Of a stretch of DNA of 64,000 nt, positions 17,491-58,330 are shown piece after piece; within the stretch, counting starts at the first letter, position 1, and each line of letters begins with the position of its first letter. This DNA is from a candidate division TA06 bacterium B3_TA06. GTDB lineage: Bacteria > Hydrothermota > Tepidihabitantia > B3-TA06. Location of the stretch: positions 1-64,000 of the forward strand of contig NJBO01000008.1 of NCBI GenBank assembly GCA_005223075.1, in the 5' to 3' direction. The notes below the pieces were generated by a model, which saw nothing but the letters and a program-made list of their open reading frames with translations, did no database searches and was not told the origin of the DNA. The translations under genes were made by a program, and so were the position numbers.

Positions 17491-18375
17491 TTGAATCAGA
17501 ATAAAATCGCAAAAATATTTATCAGTCATGGTCACAACGAACTGCTGAAACTGAAATTGAAAAATTTTATAGCCGAACGGTTAGGATTGTACCCAGTGAT
17601 ACTTGCTGAGCAACCTGATCTTGGATTGACTATAATAGAAAAACTTGAAAAATACGGCAAGGATTGTGATTTTGCCTTAATTATTCTTACGGCTGATGAT
17701 CAAACCGTTAATGGTGGTATTAGAGCTAGGCAGAATGTTATTCATGAATTAGGATTCTTTCATGGAATTCTTGGTAGAGATAAAGTCTTATTACTAAAGC
17801 AATTTAATGTAGAGTTGTTTGCAAATATATCGGGTCTCATTTATAAAGAATTCGAGGATGATAAAATAGAATCAATTTTTGAAGACATTCGATTTGCCAT
17901 TGAAACAGGCAGTGCACAGAGCAGAGGCGAATCTGTTCCAAAGAAAAAAACTGACGACAGTGAAGAATTTTCTTCGAAAATTTCGAAAAGTATTGATGTA
18001 GTGACTTATGAATGGCCGAAGATTGAACGTCGTAATCTATTGGACGAGATGAAAATGATCACTAAGGGACTTGCTGAAGACATGCAGGTTAAAAGAGTAA
18101 AGAAGTTTCTTGAGGATAAGAGAAAAGACTATGAAAAAAGGCTCAGCGAGGCTGAAGCCGAAGCTGAAAAATCAAAAGAGACATTTAAAGCGGATCCGGA
18201 TCATGGTGGTAAAATGGCAGCCATGATTCTTAGTATATCCACGACTATAGCGCCTAAGAGTACAATTGGATTCATCGACAAACTTTTAAATGAGATATCC
18301 TTTCTGGACTCTAACAATGTAAAGGCCCAAGACATTATAAACCGAATCATCGGACTTTTTGATGAAGAGCAGTAG
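17491..18375 (+). CDS. TIR-like domain protein (predicted nucleotide-binding/NADase) with C-terminal coiled coil
   Basis: 294 residues. The start is a TTG with AAGGAGGAT upstream. Residues 1-140 match the PF10137-type TIR-like domain: IFISHGHNELL near residue 9, ILAEQPDLGLTIIEKLEKY with the putative catalytic Glu50, LIILTADD, and RARQNVIHELGFFHGILGR. Such domains occur as effectors in anti-phage systems and typically degrade NAD. Residues 190-230 are a Lys/Glu-rich coiled coil; the last 60 residues are unrecognised. The gene is visibly AT-rich compared with the superoperon, has its own promoter and is bracketed by inverted repeats, so recent acquisition is likely. The defence role is inference. 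Confidence 0.8.
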   Translation: MNQNKIAKIFISHGHNELLKLKLKNFIAERLGLYPVILAEQPDLGLTIIEKLEKYGKDCDFALIILTADDQTVNGGIRARQNVIHELGFFHGILGRDKVLLLKQFNVELFANISGLIYKEFEDDKIESIFEDIRFAIETGSAQSRGESVPKKKTDDSEEFSSKISKSIDVVTYEWPKIERRNLLDEMKMITKGLAEDMQVKRVKKFLEDKRKDYEKRLSEAEAEAEKSKETFKADPDHGGKMAAMILSISTTIAPKSTIGFIDKLLNEISFLDSNNVKAQDIINRIIGLFDEEQ

Positions 18376-19455: not shown

Positions 19456-19515
19456 AAAAAAAGGTGGTCAAAAGCTGGTCAAAAGCTACCCAAAAGGTGG
19501 ACAAAAGATGGACAA
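19456..19515. repeat. 11-bp phased A-tract array, copy 1
   Basis: A-tracts begin at 19459, 19470, 19481, 19492, 19503 and 19514, exactly 11 bp apart, within a degenerate unit of the form GGNCAAAAGCT. Phased A-tracts curve DNA. A longer relative lies at 58203-58330. Confidence 0.8.
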
Positions 19516-19636
19516 GAGCGCGACTGAGTCGCGATTGCTCCGCAAGCGTCGCCCTCCGGTGCAAAAGTCAAAATGCAAATTGTAAATTGAAAGGGTCAAG
19601 GGGTGACGCTCACAGCGATCGGCTCACAGCTGATTG

Positions 19637-20031: not shown

Positions 20032-20263
20032 AGATTACTGTTCGGGCGAACCTGAAATTTTGGCCTGGATTTAGAGTTCCTTGGATTTTTGTCTGGAATC
20101 TAAGTTCCGTAGGTTTTTGGCCAGGAATCGAAGACCCTGGAGGTTTACTCCCTTAACTAAAAACCTTGGGGGGGTCTCTATGCTGTCCTGCGGCTGGGCC
20201 TGGCAGGCTAAATGCGTACAAATAGGGCTATTACGAGATAGGTTTTAGGGGGTCAGCAAAAAC

Positions 20264-20291
20264 TTGACAAATTGCGGAAAGCGGCGAGAAT
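20264..20291 (+). promoter_or_regulatory. Promoter of the first exported-protein module
   Basis: TTGACA at 20264-20269 and a weak GAGAAT at 20286-20291, spacer 16. The surrounding 60 nt are nearly identical to the promoter region at 20985-21022. Confidence 0.6.
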
Positions 20292-20297
20292 AAAGGG

Positions 20298-20330
20298 ATG
20301 AAGGATTCAAACACAAAGGAGAAGACATGA
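20298..20330 (+). CDS. Upstream mini-ORF (10 codons), possibly leaderless
   Basis: An ATG 6 nt after the -10 opens MKDSNTKEKT, whose TGA overlaps the ATG of the next gene (ATGA). A near-identical start (MNDSNTQ) precedes the paralogous gene at 21069, which suggests a real translated leader used for coupling rather than chance. Too short to prove. Confidence 0.4.
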   Translation: MKDSNTKEKT

Positions 20331-20848
20331 ACAAGCGTTTGGCAATAGGGGTTTTGTTGGTGGTGTATGGTTTTTTGGGGGGGTGCGTTCGAGCTATATC
20401 TACAGAGGAGTTTAGGACTCTAGAGAAACAGGTCATTGGAACCCTTATCTTAGATGCTTGGGAAAATCTAGAGGATACTACAGGAGTGGTGACTTTCATG
20501 GAGGTAGTGGACGATACCAATGCAGTTGATAGTCTTGTAAAAGCAATTACGGAACAGACACTCTTTTCTCAAGGGTATTCCCTTACAGCCTTCTACGAAA
20601 AGGCTAAAGAGCTTGGTATTGATGCAACCAAGGAAATCATCAGTACAACAGAAGACGCACTGACTATAGTGGCGGGCCAATACGTGGCGGGGGCATTCGT
20701 GATAGGTTTGACAAATTTGGGTGCTCCCGAGGCTGAGCTAGACAGTATGTTAGAATTCCGTAAGTGGGCAATGGTGGATACCCTTTGCAGAAAGCGTGGA
20801 TATCTACCCCCTGATTATGAGGAAAGAATAAAGCAACATGGCCAATAA
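20327..20848 (+). CDS. Hypothetical lipoprotein
   Basis: 173 residues. The N-terminus has a signal peptide with lipobox LGGC near residue 20, so export and lipid anchoring are likely. The rest is mainly helical (for example LEKQVIGTLILDAWENLED), with no family I recognise and a short Ala/Gly-rich hydrophobic stretch (VAGQYVAGAFVIGLTNLGAP). The ATG follows AAAGGAGAAGAC and overlaps the mini-ORF stop. Its stop overlaps the ATG of the FWVWY ORF. It shares its promoter/leader with the gene at 21069 but not its protein sequence. Confidence 0.75.
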   Translation: MNKRLAIGVLLVVYGFLGGCVRAISTEEFRTLEKQVIGTLILDAWENLEDTTGVVTFMEVVDDTNAVDSLVKAITEQTLFSQGYSLTAFYEKAKELGIDATKEIISTTEDALTIVAGQYVAGAFVIGLTNLGAPEAELDSMLEFRKWAMVDTLCRKRGYLPPDYEERIKQHGQ

Positions 20849-20988
20849 TGAGGAGAACTAATTATCATTTTTGGGTCTGGTACGCCCTGGCGCGGCGTGA
20901 GGTACGTGCCCGGCAGGCACCGGGTATTCTCGACCGCCGCCCGGGTAGGCCGAAGAATCAGAGAGGCGTTGAGCTTCTGAAAACTTGA
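20848..20988 (+). CDS. Short FWVWY ORF (46 codons), probable truncated relative of the ORF at 22260
   Basis: Starts on an ATG overlapping the previous stop (TAATG). It begins MRRTNYHFWVWYALARREVR; the frame after the second exported gene (22260) begins MNLPFWVWYTLAHRI, so the two share a start and a position. This copy stops inside the -35 box of the next promoter. It is basic (Arg-rich) with no known domain. Probably a remnant or a small gene of a duplicated module. Confidence 0.45.
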   Translation: MRRTNYHFWVWYALARREVRARQAPGILDRRPGRPKNQRGVELLKT

Positions 20989-21012
20989 CAAATTGCGGAA
21001 AGCGGTGATAAT
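20985..21012 (+). promoter_or_regulatory. Promoter of the second exported-protein module
   Basis: TTGACA (20985-20990), 16-nt spacer, GATAAT (21007-21012). An ATG lies 7 nt downstream and opens the mini-ORF at 21020. Confidence 0.65.
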
Positions 21013-21019
21013 AAAGGGT

Positions 21020-21058
21020 ATGAACGACTCAAACACACAAAGTGCCCCTCAAGGGTAA
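21020..21058 (+). CDS. Upstream mini-ORF (12 codons), possibly leaderless
   Basis: MNDSNTQSAPQG, starting 7 nt after the -10 and ending 10 nt before the main ATG. It corresponds to the mini-ORF at 20298. Confidence 0.4.
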   Translation: MNDSNTQSAPQG

Positions 21059-21068
21059 AGGAGAAGAC

Positions 21069-22256
21069 ATGGGCAAGCGTTTGACGAAGGGGTTTTCGTT
21101 GGTGACGGTGGGGGCTTTAGGGTTGTTTGTTACGACCCTCTCTGCAGGCATAAGCGCACGAGCCACCCTAACCAACTGGCTGAATGCAACCTGCAGTAAA
21201 AATTGGGAGAAAGTCTATCAGTACGGCGTAACTTCAGGACCGGCTGGTGCTACCGGCTATACAATCCTCAAGGAGGACCCAGAACCGGCGATTGGGCGGA
21301 TGTGGGTTAGTAAAGACTGGGAGCGTCAATCGTTAGACAGCTTGCGCTCATGGCTCACTCAAGCAGATGCCGCAAGGGACACTGTCGAAAATGTAAATAT
21401 TGAAGCACTGGTGGCTATGGCATACGAAAAGCAATATCGGGAACGCTACGGGAACCTGCCCGATTCCTTGCTTGTGGTCACAAGGGTAGATGCCAACTTT
21501 TCTGATGAAGGCGTAGGGCTAGAAAAGGGAGATATCTTACTTACTTATGACGGGAGACCGGTATACTCTTCCCAGGTTTTCAAGGATGTTTCATGGGAAG
21601 CTACCCGAGAACGCATCAATCGAACCGAACTTGGAGAAGTTATCGCTTTTTTAAAGTCTCTCAAAAAGGACCCCCATCGAGGCATGGCTGAGCTGGTGAT
21701 CCTGCGGGCCGGAGATACGCTCAGCATCTGGTGTCCCAGAGAAGGCTATTGTATTGCCCCCACGTTATCATTAAAAGCAACTATCGAACCCCCCAACATC
21801 ATAGGTGCCGCCAGGATGCGTGCAAGGGAATATTATAGGAAATGCCAGATCTTCGGCGCGCAGATCTCCCTGATTAATCGTGCTTATAAATGCGTTGGCT
21901 CGCTGCCCCCGGCAAGATCGGGTCCTGACTTCCGGGCCAGCCTCCTCGGGATGAGGATGATTCTTGATAACGGCATGGAGTTTGCCCTTATCTCTCAGGG
22001 GCACCCCGATGTGGCGGCTGCAATGTTAGAGCCGGAAGATTTGGAGTGTATGGGGAAGGGTACATTGGTGATCAGGAACAAAACTTTTGATGTTGAGGCC
22101 CACGGCATATTCCAGAGTGGAGTATTTAAAGGACTGCCCTGGGCGTGGCATTACGACGTTTGGGTCGCCCGTTGTGACCGTGTGGTGAACGAGGAGACTA
22201 TCCCTGGTAAATGGTTGGTAATCGGAGCCATCGAATATGAGAGTTGGGAAGAGTAA
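21069..22256 (+). CDS. Exported protein with a PDZ-like segment
   Basis: 395 residues from the ATG at 21069, which follows AAAGGAGAAGAC; an in-frame ATG 27 nt earlier overlaps the mini-ORF and lacks a signal context. A signal peptide or N-terminal anchor (LVTVGALGLFVTTLSAG) is followed by a PDZ-like core near residues 150-175 (GVGLEKGDILLTYDGRPV). The rest has several Cys and Trp residues and no recognised catalytic motif. Role unknown; a periplasmic binding or scaffold function is possible. Confidence 0.7.
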   Translation: MGKRLTKGFSLVTVGALGLFVTTLSAGISARATLTNWLNATCSKNWEKVYQYGVTSGPAGATGYTILKEDPEPAIGRMWVSKDWERQSLDSLRSWLTQADAARDTVENVNIEALVAMAYEKQYRERYGNLPDSLLVVTRVDANFSDEGVGLEKGDILLTYDGRPVYSSQVFKDVSWEATRERINRTELGEVIAFLKSLKKDPHRGMAELVILRAGDTLSIWCPREGYCIAPTLSLKATIEPPNIIGAARMRAREYYRKCQIFGAQISLINRAYKCVGSLPPARSGPDFRASLLGMRMILDNGMEFALISQGHPDVAAAMLEPEDLECMGKGTLVIRNKTFDVEAHGIFQSGVFKGLPWAWHYDVWVARCDRVVNEETIPGKWLVIGAIEYESWEE

Positions 22257-22259
22257 TCC

Positions 22260-22913
22260 ATGAATCTTCCCTTTTGGGTGTGGTATACCTTGGCGCACCG
22301 GATACATGCAGGCCAACTATACCGCAGCGACCGAAGGGGGGCGTCCCGTAAAAACCTTCCACCTTACCGGTTCGGGGAGCGCATAACCCTTCCCCAAACC
22401 TACTGGGACGGCGGGGCCTGGGCTATGCCGCCGAAGTCAGTATCAAAAGACGACCCCGGCGGCGCCCGTTCCCGTCTTTACGTCTACTTCCAGGATCGCG
22501 GCTATGGTCGTTCTAAGCCTCTCTTTGTATCCCGGCACTGGTGTTCCCTCGCGGCGCAGGACTGAACTGGCGCTATGAGGCTCTGCGAGGCCGCTACGGG
22601 CTATCCCCGGACAACGCCCGGCTTGTGATCTCTATTGAGGACGGCAAGGACTACTCTGAGAACGCCTTAAAAGTTGCCAAGCACCGCGGAGCGGCAGATA
22701 ATAGAGGAGATCCTCTCTCGTCCGCCTGGAGAGTGTCAGGGGATGACCTGGGAGGAGTATAAAGCACTTAGAGAGATGTCCCCCCAGGCTCAGACGATCC
22801 GGATTCCCCGGACATTGAACTCTGTTTGGCCACCTGAACTTGTAACCTTTTTTAAGGGACGAAACCTGCTCGGCAAGACCTTTTCGATCCCTCACCGACC
22901 GCCTTCCAGATAG
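22260..22913 (+). pseudogene. Decayed FWVWY gene with two frameshifts
   Basis: Starts 3 nt after the preceding stop. Coding-like sequence passes through three segments: 22260-22565 (start FWVWYTLAHR, later LYVYFQDRGYGRSKPLF), then about 22560-22680 in another frame (NWRYEALRGRYGL and DNARLVISIEDGKDYSENAL), then back in the first frame to 22913 (AERQIIEEILSRPPGECQ and MTWEEYKALREM). Together this would be about 215 residues. No family is recognised. The arrangement looks like one gene broken by two indels, though assembly error cannot be excluded. Confidence 0.5.
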
Positions 22914-23054
22914 CTTTCCCTGTAACCTTTTTGAGGGTAAATGAAGCCTCCCTAGCTGCCTTCCTCATGTAACCTTTCCCCCCTTGACATCGCCCTCAAA
23001 TTGCATAATGTTCGTGCAGACCCAACTTTACTTTGGCATAGTCGCCGACAAATT

Positions 23055-25112
23055 CTAGTGAAGCTTCAGCACTATCGGTTCCTGGCTCAGCCGGGCCATG
23101 CCTTCCACAAGCTCCTTGTACTTCGGGTACTCCTGGGGCGGAATCCACGGCTTAAGCACCTGCAGGCTTTCTGAAAACTGCAGAACCCCGCGTCCGGGCT
23201 GCACAAACGTCGCGGCATAAGAATCATAGGAGTTGCTGATGGAGACATCCTGTGGGTAGTATATAAGCTCGGCACCTGGCGGCAGCTGCAGGCTGAGGTT
23301 CAGGATATCCGCGCTTCGTGTAACGCGATCTATCGGGTACGCTCGATCCCTTGCACCTACCCAGTAAGCGGAGTGTTCAACACCAGGCAGGTAGAGTATA
23401 AGGTACTCGCCCGCACGGGTAGCGTAATCAGGGATGCTGACGTTTAATGTGTAGGTAATGTTTTGGTTCAGAGGTGCTATCCCGCGGAACCGGAAGTCTT
23501 TAAGCCTGGCGTTTGGATGGATCTCTGCTGCCAGTTCTTCGGCCTCCTGTCTAAGCTCGGCAGGGGAGAGGGGTTTGAGATATCGCTTCCACCAGGCTGA
23601 GTTCTGGCCATTGAACTCGACGTCCACAGTGAGATCAAGTGAACCGTCTGCTCTTAGCTGGGCGAGGGTACTGGTGATTGTTGCCTCTTCGTTGGGGGTG
23701 CGCAGCGGCGTCTTCTTGAGCTTGCCTGAGGAAAGCGAAAGCCCCATCGCATCCTGGTCTGAGGTGGTACCGAAACCTACGTTTGAGTTTGGGTCGAGGT
23801 AGATTCGGTCCTCAAACAGGACAAGTGCCGTATTAAGCTGACCTAAGGTGGGGAAGGTGGGGACCACTCGCCCGCTTGAGCGATCGCGTATAAGTACAAG
23901 ATCTGCTTCCAGACCGGCTTCCCTCATAAGAACGCAAAGCAGCGCCGCCCGATCAAGGTTGTTCGCGAAACCTCGAACGAGCACCGTTTCTGCAAGGGTT
24001 GAAACGTAGGAATAGGAATCAAGTGAAGGGCCAGCGGGACGAATAGAGGCGGCAACGAACTCGTACAGGGCGCGGGCCTTTTCTTCCGATGCAGGGAGGC
24101 CTTGTGTGAGCGAATCAACGACCTGAGTAAGTCTTTCACCGGGCTGGATTGCCTTATCTGCATGCGCGCGTAGGGACCTTGCAATGGAGTGCCAATCCTT
24201 CTCCTCGGCGACGATGAAATGTGGCAGGTAATCTGCTGCCGGCGGGGTCATCTGCTCGAACCGTAGTGGTGGCTGGTTTTGTATGCGCCAGGTGAGTATC
24301 TCGCGGCCTTTCCTGGTTTCGCGTTCGGGCTTTTGTCCGCTCGACGCATAGACTGCAAGATGTCCGCCTTGGGGTTGCTCAACCCGGATGATCTCCATCA
24401 TCGTAGGTTGCCTATCCTCCAGTACTATCTCTTCACATATCGGGTGGATGCTGTCGGCTACGTTCTGGATGGTCGAGAACTGAAAATCAAGCACCGAACC
24501 GACCCTTGATTCAGGAACCGCTATTTGTAGCTGGGTAAGATTGCTATATTCAGCAGGAGCAGGATAGCGGCTTACCCTGTTGATTGCCGCCTCGGTTATG
24601 TGGTTTATCTCTCCATCAGGGCTGTAGCTGCGTGCAAAGTCTACCTTTGCATAGGCCCTATCCGCCAGATAACTCCAGGTATTGTTTGCGGCAGCACCTT
24701 TGCCTGACTCGGCGGATACGTAGCGTATCACCCTCATGCGTTTCTCAAAGGTTCCATCCTCATGCAGGATAAAATTATGCTCCACGTAGAGATTTACGTA
24801 CCGTACATCTATCTGAGGCGGGGTGAAGGTGGTAAGTATTTCTTTAAGGATTGAATCGTCGATGTCTTTTAAGGTTTTCCATTCCTCACCCTGTCTTGGC
24901 TGGGGAAGATCAAGTCCTCTTATCTCGGATTTGGCAAATGCAAGGGTGCCCTCTTCAGCCCTAAACCACAGGCTGTCTGCGGTTATACGTTCAAGTGCCC
25001 CTATCTTTTCTTCTCCGCTCAAGAGGTAGATCACGTCGTGGCTCGTGCGTACCGCTTGCCTGCATCCGGTGGTTGCAAGGATCAGGATAAGGAATGATAG
25101 AAGACGGTTCAC
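23055..25112 (-). CDS. DUF3857/transglutaminase-like lipoprotein lacking the catalytic Cys and His
   Basis: 685 residues. The signal ends in lipobox TTGC. The protein has the DUF3857 layout: an N-terminal beta domain, a central transglutaminase-like domain and a C-terminal beta domain (DUF3858-like). In the active-site position its paralogue has GDCTDKAILFATLL; this protein has GFANNLDRAALLCVLM, so Cys is replaced. The His position reads LNTALVLFEDRIYLD, keeping only the Asp. A binding or structural role is therefore likely. It overlaps the upstream gene by 4 nt (ATGA) and is the second gene of a two-gene operon. Confidence 0.85.
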   Translation of the reverse strand: MNRLLSFLILILATTGCRQAVRTSHDVIYLLSGEEKIGALERITADSLWFRAEEGTLAFAKSEIRGLDLPQPRQGEEWKTLKDIDDSILKEILTTFTPPQIDVRYVNLYVEHNFILHEDGTFEKRMRVIRYVSAESGKGAAANNTWSYLADRAYAKVDFARSYSPDGEINHITEAAINRVSRYPAPAEYSNLTQLQIAVPESRVGSVLDFQFSTIQNVADSIHPICEEIVLEDRQPTMMEIIRVEQPQGGHLAVYASSGQKPERETRKGREILTWRIQNQPPLRFEQMTPPAADYLPHFIVAEEKDWHSIARSLRAHADKAIQPGERLTQVVDSLTQGLPASEEKARALYEFVAASIRPAGPSLDSYSYVSTLAETVLVRGFANNLDRAALLCVLMREAGLEADLVLIRDRSSGRVVPTFPTLGQLNTALVLFEDRIYLDPNSNVGFGTTSDQDAMGLSLSSGKLKKTPLRTPNEEATITSTLAQLRADGSLDLTVDVEFNGQNSAWWKRYLKPLSPAELRQEAEELAAEIHPNARLKDFRFRGIAPLNQNITYTLNVSIPDYATRAGEYLILYLPGVEHSAYWVGARDRAYPIDRVTRSADILNLSLQLPPGAELIYYPQDVSISNSYDSYAATFVQPGRGVLQFSESLQVLKPWIPPQEYPKYKELVEGMARLSQEPIVLKLH

Positions 25113-28202: not shown

Positions 28203-28243
28203 TTGACAGGGGTGGCCTTTTGCCTATAATGAGCATATGCTCA
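28203..28243 (+). promoter_or_regulatory. Promoter with palindromic operator
   Basis: TTGACA (28203-28208), 16 nt, TATAAT (28225-28230). TGAGCATATGCTCA at 28230-28243 is a perfect 14-bp palindrome covering the expected transcription start, so a dimeric repressor could block initiation. DUF134, encoded next, is the obvious candidate (inference). Confidence 0.75.
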
Positions 28244-28258
28244 AAACTGAGGTGAAGA

Positions 28259-28627
28259 ATGCCCCGACCGCGTAAATACCGGATGATCCAAAGCGAGTTC
28301 GGGATCAGTTTCTTCGGCCCGAAGGGTATTCCCATGCACGAGCTGGAGATGACTGCTCTCAGTCACGAGGAGGTTGAGGCCTTGAGGCTTACCGATCTGG
28401 AAGGGCTTTATCAAGAAGAAGCGGCGCAGGAGATGGGGGTTTCACGCCCTACTTTCGGCAGGACTTTGATTTCTGCCCGCAGGAAGCTGGCGGATGCGCT
28501 GATCAATGGAAAAGGGCTTCAGGTGGCAGGCGGGAGTTACATGATCGCCGGGCATCCGGTTATTTGTCGTCACTGGCATAGGCGAGGAAGACACGGCTGG
28601 AGGGGTGGAAGAGGAGAGAGGAGTTAG
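28259..28627 (+). CDS. DUF134 family DNA-binding protein
   Basis: 122 residues. The N-terminus MPRPRKYRMI and the helix-turn-helix (LEGLYQEEAAQEMGVSRPTF, GRTLISARRKLADALI) are typical of DUF134, a sigma-factor region 4-like DNA-binding family. The C-terminus is rich in His, Arg and Gly (HWHRRGRHGWRGGRG), possibly metal-sensing. DUF134 commonly heads clusters of MinD-type ATPases and NifX-like proteins, as here. SD GAGGTGAAG. The stop is directly followed by the next ATG. Confidence 0.9.
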   Translation: MPRPRKYRMIQSEFGISFFGPKGIPMHELEMTALSHEEVEALRLTDLEGLYQEEAAQEMGVSRPTFGRTLISARRKLADALINGKGLQVAGGSYMIAGHPVICRHWHRRGRHGWRGGRGERS

Positions 28628-58202: not shown

Positions 58203-58330
58203 AAAAAGCTGGTCAAAAGTTGGACAAAAGCTCCCCAAAAGATGGACAAAAGCTGGACACGCTCTTGAAGATTATCTTGGAAAAAAGCTGGTCAAAAGAT
58301 AGACTAAAGTTGGCCAAAAATTGGACAAAA
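58203..58330. repeat. 11-bp phased A-tract array, copy 2
   Basis: A-tracts start at about 58204, 58215, 58226, 58237 and 58248, then at 58283, 58294, 58305, 58316 and 58327, all 11 bp apart within each group. Units follow GNTGGNCAAAA. Confidence 0.8.

Follow-up and report, generated by a model that had tools for sequence, protein, structure and literature searches.

The duplicated module in this stretch of DNA is very probably the terL-side end of a decayed Mu-like prophage of Stahlbacteria/WOR-3, in which a cargo slot lies between two viral genes and two genes, A and B, are tandem morons. The window analysed here is the whole stretch of 64,000 nt (G000:C8:1-64000), taken from a 2.41-Mb genome in 42 contigs (G000). 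Its order is gene A, a scar, promoter 2, gene B, a broken FWVWY gene and the phage end (Table 1), and together with its relatives it displays a phage gene order, a chimeric scar, a phage end and swapped cargo in a sibling genome.

Table 1. Features of the module, in positions of the window.
Feature	Position	Strand	Description
Promoter P1	20264-20291	+	TTGACA, 16-nt spacer, GAGAAT; homologous to P2
Mini-ORF 1	20298-20330	+	MKDSNTKEKT; begins 7 nt after the -10 element; possible leaderless uORF; stop overlaps the gene A start (ATGA)
Gene A	20327-20848	+	173 aa; predicted lipoprotein (LGGC-type signal, by eye); candidate moron 1
FWVWY-1 (scar)	20844-20988	+	FWVWY 5' end (to about 20897) joined to terL 3' end (about 20896-20980); 46-codon ORF ends at 20988
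Promoter P2	20985-21012	+	TTGACA, 16-nt spacer, GATAAT; directly 3' of the terL end, as in phage G147
Mini-ORF 2	21020-21058	+	MNDSNTQSAPQG; begins 8 nt after the -10 element
Gene B	21069-22256	+	395 aa; predicted exported, Sec-type signal (by eye), weak PDZ likeness; candidate moron 2
FWVWY-2	22260-22913	+	broken full-length FWVWY gene; frame changes and 3 in-frame stops against intact relatives
terL-side phage end	22914-23050	+	inner repeat 23001-23014; outer repeat 23034-23050, ending ...CGACA

Promoter repeat, exported proteins and mini-ORFs

Each of the two candidate morons is preceded by its own promoter. P1 and P2 are identical at 53 of 58 nt, and their likeness extends past the Shine-Dalgarno site over roughly the first 60 nt of the coding sequence (72% over 75 nt), that is, into the signal-peptide codons. 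A search of the whole genome with copy 2, as the first-pass annotation had proposed, recovered copy 1 at an E-value of 9e-20, while the next match reached only 0.003 over 27 nt; the repeat is far beyond chance and nothing comparable occurs elsewhere in this genome. The two promoters, mini-ORFs, exported proteins and FWVWY starts of that annotation were all confirmed in place. The module that it delimited at 20256-22913 is likewise real, but ends with the phage end at 23050 rather than at 22913. A known RNA element was rejected as a reading of the module, none having been found. In the window, 11-nt tandem repeats (AAAAGCTGGAC-like) occur at 19459-19519 and again at 58204-58330, and similar ones lie upstream of the module in genome G001. 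A CAP12/Pycsar-type TIR gene (17491-18375; PADLOC PDC-S35) adjoins cdsA; it is absent at that place in G001, where a metallophosphatase-like gene lies nearby instead.

Gene A had a strong match in only one of the 65 genomes searched, G001, where it is 99% identical; matches at E-values of 0.02-0.1 were treated as chance. A relative of gene B (61%) was found in genome G002, and its dN/dS was 0.35. The PDZ signal of gene B is weak and below the cut-off, the HTRA1 PDZ domain being matched in PDB by sequence at an E-value of 0.025, and its structure model was useless (pLDDT 32.5). We read both genes as putative morons, i.e. lysogenic-conversion cargo, that were probably stacked through an illegitimate join; most likely they would be surface proteins altering the envelope of the lysogen, for example so as to exclude other phages.

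The mini-ORFs did not prove to be a conserved part of the module, as the first-pass annotation had supposed. Among five homologous promoter copies, the ATG is present in three (window P1, window P2 and G001 P1), is replaced by ATA in G002 and has no counterpart in G001 P2. When 12 slot promoters were compared by eye, an ATG mini-ORF was seen near the expected transcript start in four (window P1 and P2, G001 P1 and G003:C53), three of which are copies of one promoter; GTG stands at that place in G006 and G007, the FWAWY gene itself starts there in G001:C65, and no mini-ORF start was seen at G001 P2, G002:C155, G147, G002:C237 or G003:C101. Coupling at ATGA overlaps has been established elsewhere, according to the part of PMC6728339 used here. 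RTGA overlap coupling was not enriched in our counts (3/15 versus 9/74, P 0.33), and for this reason, together with the start missing in two of the five copies, the mini-ORF was rejected as a conserved core.

Promoters of the TTGACA/TATAAT type numbered 265 in 914 kb of the genome (window included), as against 15 for the reversed control motif. ATG codons 6-9 nt after the -10 element were enriched (75 versus 19.9 expected), both for ORFs of at least 50 codons (58 versus 11.6) and for ORFs of at most 25 codons (14 versus 6.4, P 0.006). Given this enrichment, leaderless genes seem to be common in this Stahlbacteria lineage, and a small class of mini-ORFs may exist. The mini-ORFs of the module would fit such a lineage, their position making a leaderless uORF plausible, though optional and unproven. 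They resemble mycobacterial leaderless small ORFs, as described in the portion of PMC4633059 considered, in starting at the expected transcript start, in being short and, for one of them, in overlapping the next start as ATGA; they differ in lacking enriched coupling and in not being conserved at the locus. A further mini-ORF of the leaderless type (MLKTEVKNAPTA, 28203-28262) overlaps the start of the gene at 28259 and is the same in G001.

The FWVWY gene at the terL end of a Mu-like phage

The exact FWVWY motif occurs only twice in the 2.4-Mb genome, once behind each of genes A and B. FWVWY-2, which starts 3 nt after the gene B stop, is decayed, as the first-pass annotation had said, with three in-frame stops when aligned to intact relatives. 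Such intact homologues, for which that annotation had advised a search, were found: they are basic proteins (pI 9.7-11.2) of about 216-237 residues under purifying selection (dN/dS 0.23-0.28). The family gave no usable match in Pfam, NCBIfam, PHROGs or PDB (best PDB match by sequence at an E-value of 0.22), and its structure model was poor (mean pLDDT 53.9). With the 101-aa ORF as query against 61 relatives, strong matches (E <1e-20) came from four genomes (G000, G001, G003 and G007), and the same four were recovered at 0.001 or better when the FWVWY alignment was searched against 147 genomes of the phylum. A scan of genome contigs gave four loci, all of Stahlbacteria or WOR-3, and a scan of IMG/VR gave one. 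Matches at E-values of 0.01-0.4 were treated as chance, except for the shorter fragments of G001 (C1 and C65), which were kept because FWVWY is readable in their context.

The single IMG/VR locus is G147 (IMGVR_UViG_3300031586_000008; 41,849 bp), which encodes Portal_Mu, Phage_Mu_F (MuF), DUF2586, a tape measure protein, an rve-type (DDE-type) transposase and an AAA ATPase. By its transposase, AAA ATPase, Mu-type portal and MuF, G147 is a Mu-like transposable phage, and its two ends are inverted TG...CA repeats. One end reads small gene, terL (large terminase), TTGACA promoter, 13-codon ORF, FWVWF and phage end, so that terL and FWVWF are separated by the 13-codon ORF only. The idea that FWVWY is an insertion unit in itself was rejected, as its place next to terL in the phage is fixed. 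A second phage contig, G148, has the portal, transposase, ATPase, sheath and tail genes in common with G147; it breaks off before terL, and FWVWY was not found in it. TerL relatives occur in 9 of 61 genomes, namely G000-G007 and the more distant G021.

This phage also explains the first FWVWY ORF, whose start sits in the gene A stop (TAATG, 20848). Positions 20844-20897 match the beginning of the FWVWF gene in the phage, and positions 20896-20985 the last terL codons and stop (77%, 90 nt); in the terL frame, the window reads RYVPGRHRVFSTAARVGRRIREALSF plus stop and the phage RYVSGKHRLFATATRVGRRIREAFLS plus stop. An independent TerL search of 61 genomes also matched this site (E 6e-6), together with a twin in G001. 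The two parental alignments overlap by 2 bp, so that the join looks illegitimate rather than homologous, and P2 follows directly after the scar, just as a promoter follows terL in the phage. An FWVWY ORF thus does start directly behind each exported protein, as the first-pass annotation had it, but the first one is a chimera with terL and is more degraded than the second.

On the other side of gene B, FWVWY-2 is followed by a phage end. Outer and inner TATG repeats are common to 12 of 13 aligned phage ends, and the thirteenth, G001:C65, shows both on inspection elsewhere. The outer repeat TTGCATAGTCGCCGACA (at most one mismatch) is found at the FWVWY ends of the window, G001:C65, G003:C101 and G007:C119 and also at the tail-side ends in G000:C6, G001:C54 and G004:C33; of the five viral contigs that carried the end motif, three (L110-L112) were treated as chance, having no other likeness. 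Likeness to the host sequence of the siblings resumes at 23062, and in G003 and G004 the neighbouring host gene has no phage end behind it. A single phage end is left in the window, so that no target duplication is readable.

Several features of related phages were noted in passing. Exported proteins lie at phage ends in L071:4420-5109, L053:9564-10196 and L086:15225-15812, and the one carried by G147 closes with a stretch that resembles Por_Secre_tail, a T9SS sorting domain (E 0.001, below the cut-off), as though phage proteins took the surface-sorting route of the host. In five genomes from two genera (G000:C4:29272-30687, G001:C21, G003:C53, G004:C124 and G005:C27), a large host gene, apparently the same one each time, has a Mu-like terL beside it, which would be an old and perhaps retained prophage end; G000:C4 keeps only a lysis-like gene, a small gene and terL. 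In G007, a tail gene of one Mu-like phage (L053:8270-8773) is cut at the end motif of another, through either insertion of a prophage into a prophage or rearrangement.

Cargo slots in related genomes

In genome G001, gene A is followed by the scar and promoter seen in the window (98% over 182 nt). A 314-aa TPR/DUF4352-like gene then stands where gene B would be, with a truncated FWAWY behind it. At its tail-side end, phage G148 carries a lipoprotein gene that this second gene resembles (44% over 107 aa; E 2e-25); no close relative of the second gene was found in IMG/VR. Gene B, or the other gene in G001, is inserted between a terL end and an FWVWY gene that are adjacent in a related phage, as a moron would be. 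The claim of the first-pass annotation that one control region is carried before different exported proteins is borne out by G001, where the same promoter and an FWVWY-type ORF flank a different second gene. Its modular system is right as far as the swapped exported genes go; what the annotation did not recognize is that the modules are slots for cargo, located at the terL end of a Mu-like prophage.

Other slots are filled differently. G002 has the relative of gene B with an FWIWY remnant directly after it, and G007 an exported protein before FWVWF. In G001:C65 the order is terL 3' end, PLD gene, FWVWY fragment, ABC-3C operon, intact FWAWY and phage end, the operon being defence-like (CTD10 and DUF2326; PADLOC PDC-M68A/B). 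A DNA methylase fragment precedes a broken FWIWY in G003:C101, a contig with two FWVWY plus end units in the same direction. G005:C19 shows terL, a D12 methylase and the phage end, FWVWY being missing at that terL end, and in G003:C53, G006:C29 and G002:C237 terL is followed by a TTGACA promoter and genes without assigned function.

Origin of the tandem and its meaning

The related phage has the order terL, promoter, slot, FWVWY gene and phage end, and the slot would carry morons with their own sigma-70-type promoter, expressible in the lysogen, which here are putative envelope or exported proteins. A join with a homology of a few bases at most, between the 5' end of the FWVWY gene that followed A and the 3' end of the terL before B, would have given rise to the tandem and left FWVWY-1 as the scar. 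The remaining prophage would then have been lost, while the promoter-driven cargo stayed. We infer this order of events, the expression of the morons in the lysogen and a benefit to the host.

The prophage reading is favoured by the position of the FWVWY gene in G147, with terL on one side and the phage end on the other, by the chimeric scar, which G001 shares, by the phage-end motif, by the varied cargo of the terL-end slots and by the purifying selection on FWVWY. Counting against it are the slot of G147, with its 13-codon ORF only, genes A and B without a match in IMG/VR, and the window, in which no other compared phage protein (including transposase, AAA ATPase, portal and MuF) was matched, leaving an end remnant only. 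Also on that side are the absence of FWVWY from INPHARED and at G005:C19; the lack of any terminator-like site on the plus strand from gene A or B to the FWVWY ORF that follows, where the immediate start of FWVWY at the stop codon leaves room for a terminator only after FWVWY; and the 5-mers flanking the two ends of G147, which differ (by eye) in the way expected of packaged DNA with mixed host flanks. The same scar, without stacking inside one phage, would result from two adjacent prophages with one moron each, if a deletion had begun within the FWVWY gene of the first prophage and reached into the terL of the second. This route, in favour of which the paired units of G003:C101 speak, deserves serious consideration while falling short of probable; nothing speaks directly against it, and the sequence reads the same for either route.

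A regulatory cassette of the host, a mobile control unit composed of promoter, leaderless mini-ORF and signal-peptide start that is fused to one exported protein or another and co-transcribed with FWVWY, would account for a likeness that reaches into the signal-peptide codons and would suit a genome with common leaderless starts. It is nevertheless very unlikely, for the flanks are phage sequence, promoter and FWVWY occur at no other place in the genome, and the mini-ORF is neither constant nor enriched in overlap coupling. Different genes between the same flanks in siblings might also recall an integron-like array of gene cassettes, with FWVWY marking the recombination site. This we regard as hardly credible: no inverted repeats of at least 16 nt, as an attC-like site should have, were found in 20150-23100, and FWVWY is an entire coding gene on which purifying selection acts and whose place in the phage is fixed.

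Accessory genes at phage ends are known, as the right end of phage Mu carries mom and com. The slots described here are similar in holding non-structural accessory genes at a phage end, among them DNA methylases in some; FWVWY itself matched neither Mom nor Com in any library searched. Morons and plastic regions have also been described for Pseudomonas Mu-like phages, and the acquisition of their variable genes is called mysterious in the portion of that account drawn on here (PMC4378225). Accessory genes lie there, as here, between two conserved phage genes, vary among relatives and are in part thought to serve the lysogen. In contrast to the Pseudomonas phages, most of whose plastic regions are placed in the left arm in the same portion, our slot lies between terL and the phage end, and it has exported and defence-like genes, an FWVWY neighbour and a scar that shows the join of two. 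A literature search on Stahlbacteria and prophages returned no paper on that point.

Under the prophage reading, it is conceivable, if rather unlikely, that the terL-end slot is a growing cargo platform, to which the transposable phages of this phylum add exported-protein or defence genes serially, leaving FWVWY scars, and that the FWVWY protein, which is basic and has intact copies beside the phage end, acts there or in end reactions. As a warning for annotation, a regulatory module found in duplicate can turn out to be the remnant of a prophage. For the phages themselves, the preserved junction shows one route of moron entry, in which the two genes that flank the slot are joined illegitimately, and the contents of this slot differ among the sibling genomes. 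The combination of terL end, FWVWY and end motif provides a handle for finding the cargo and defence genes of transposable phages in the phylum.
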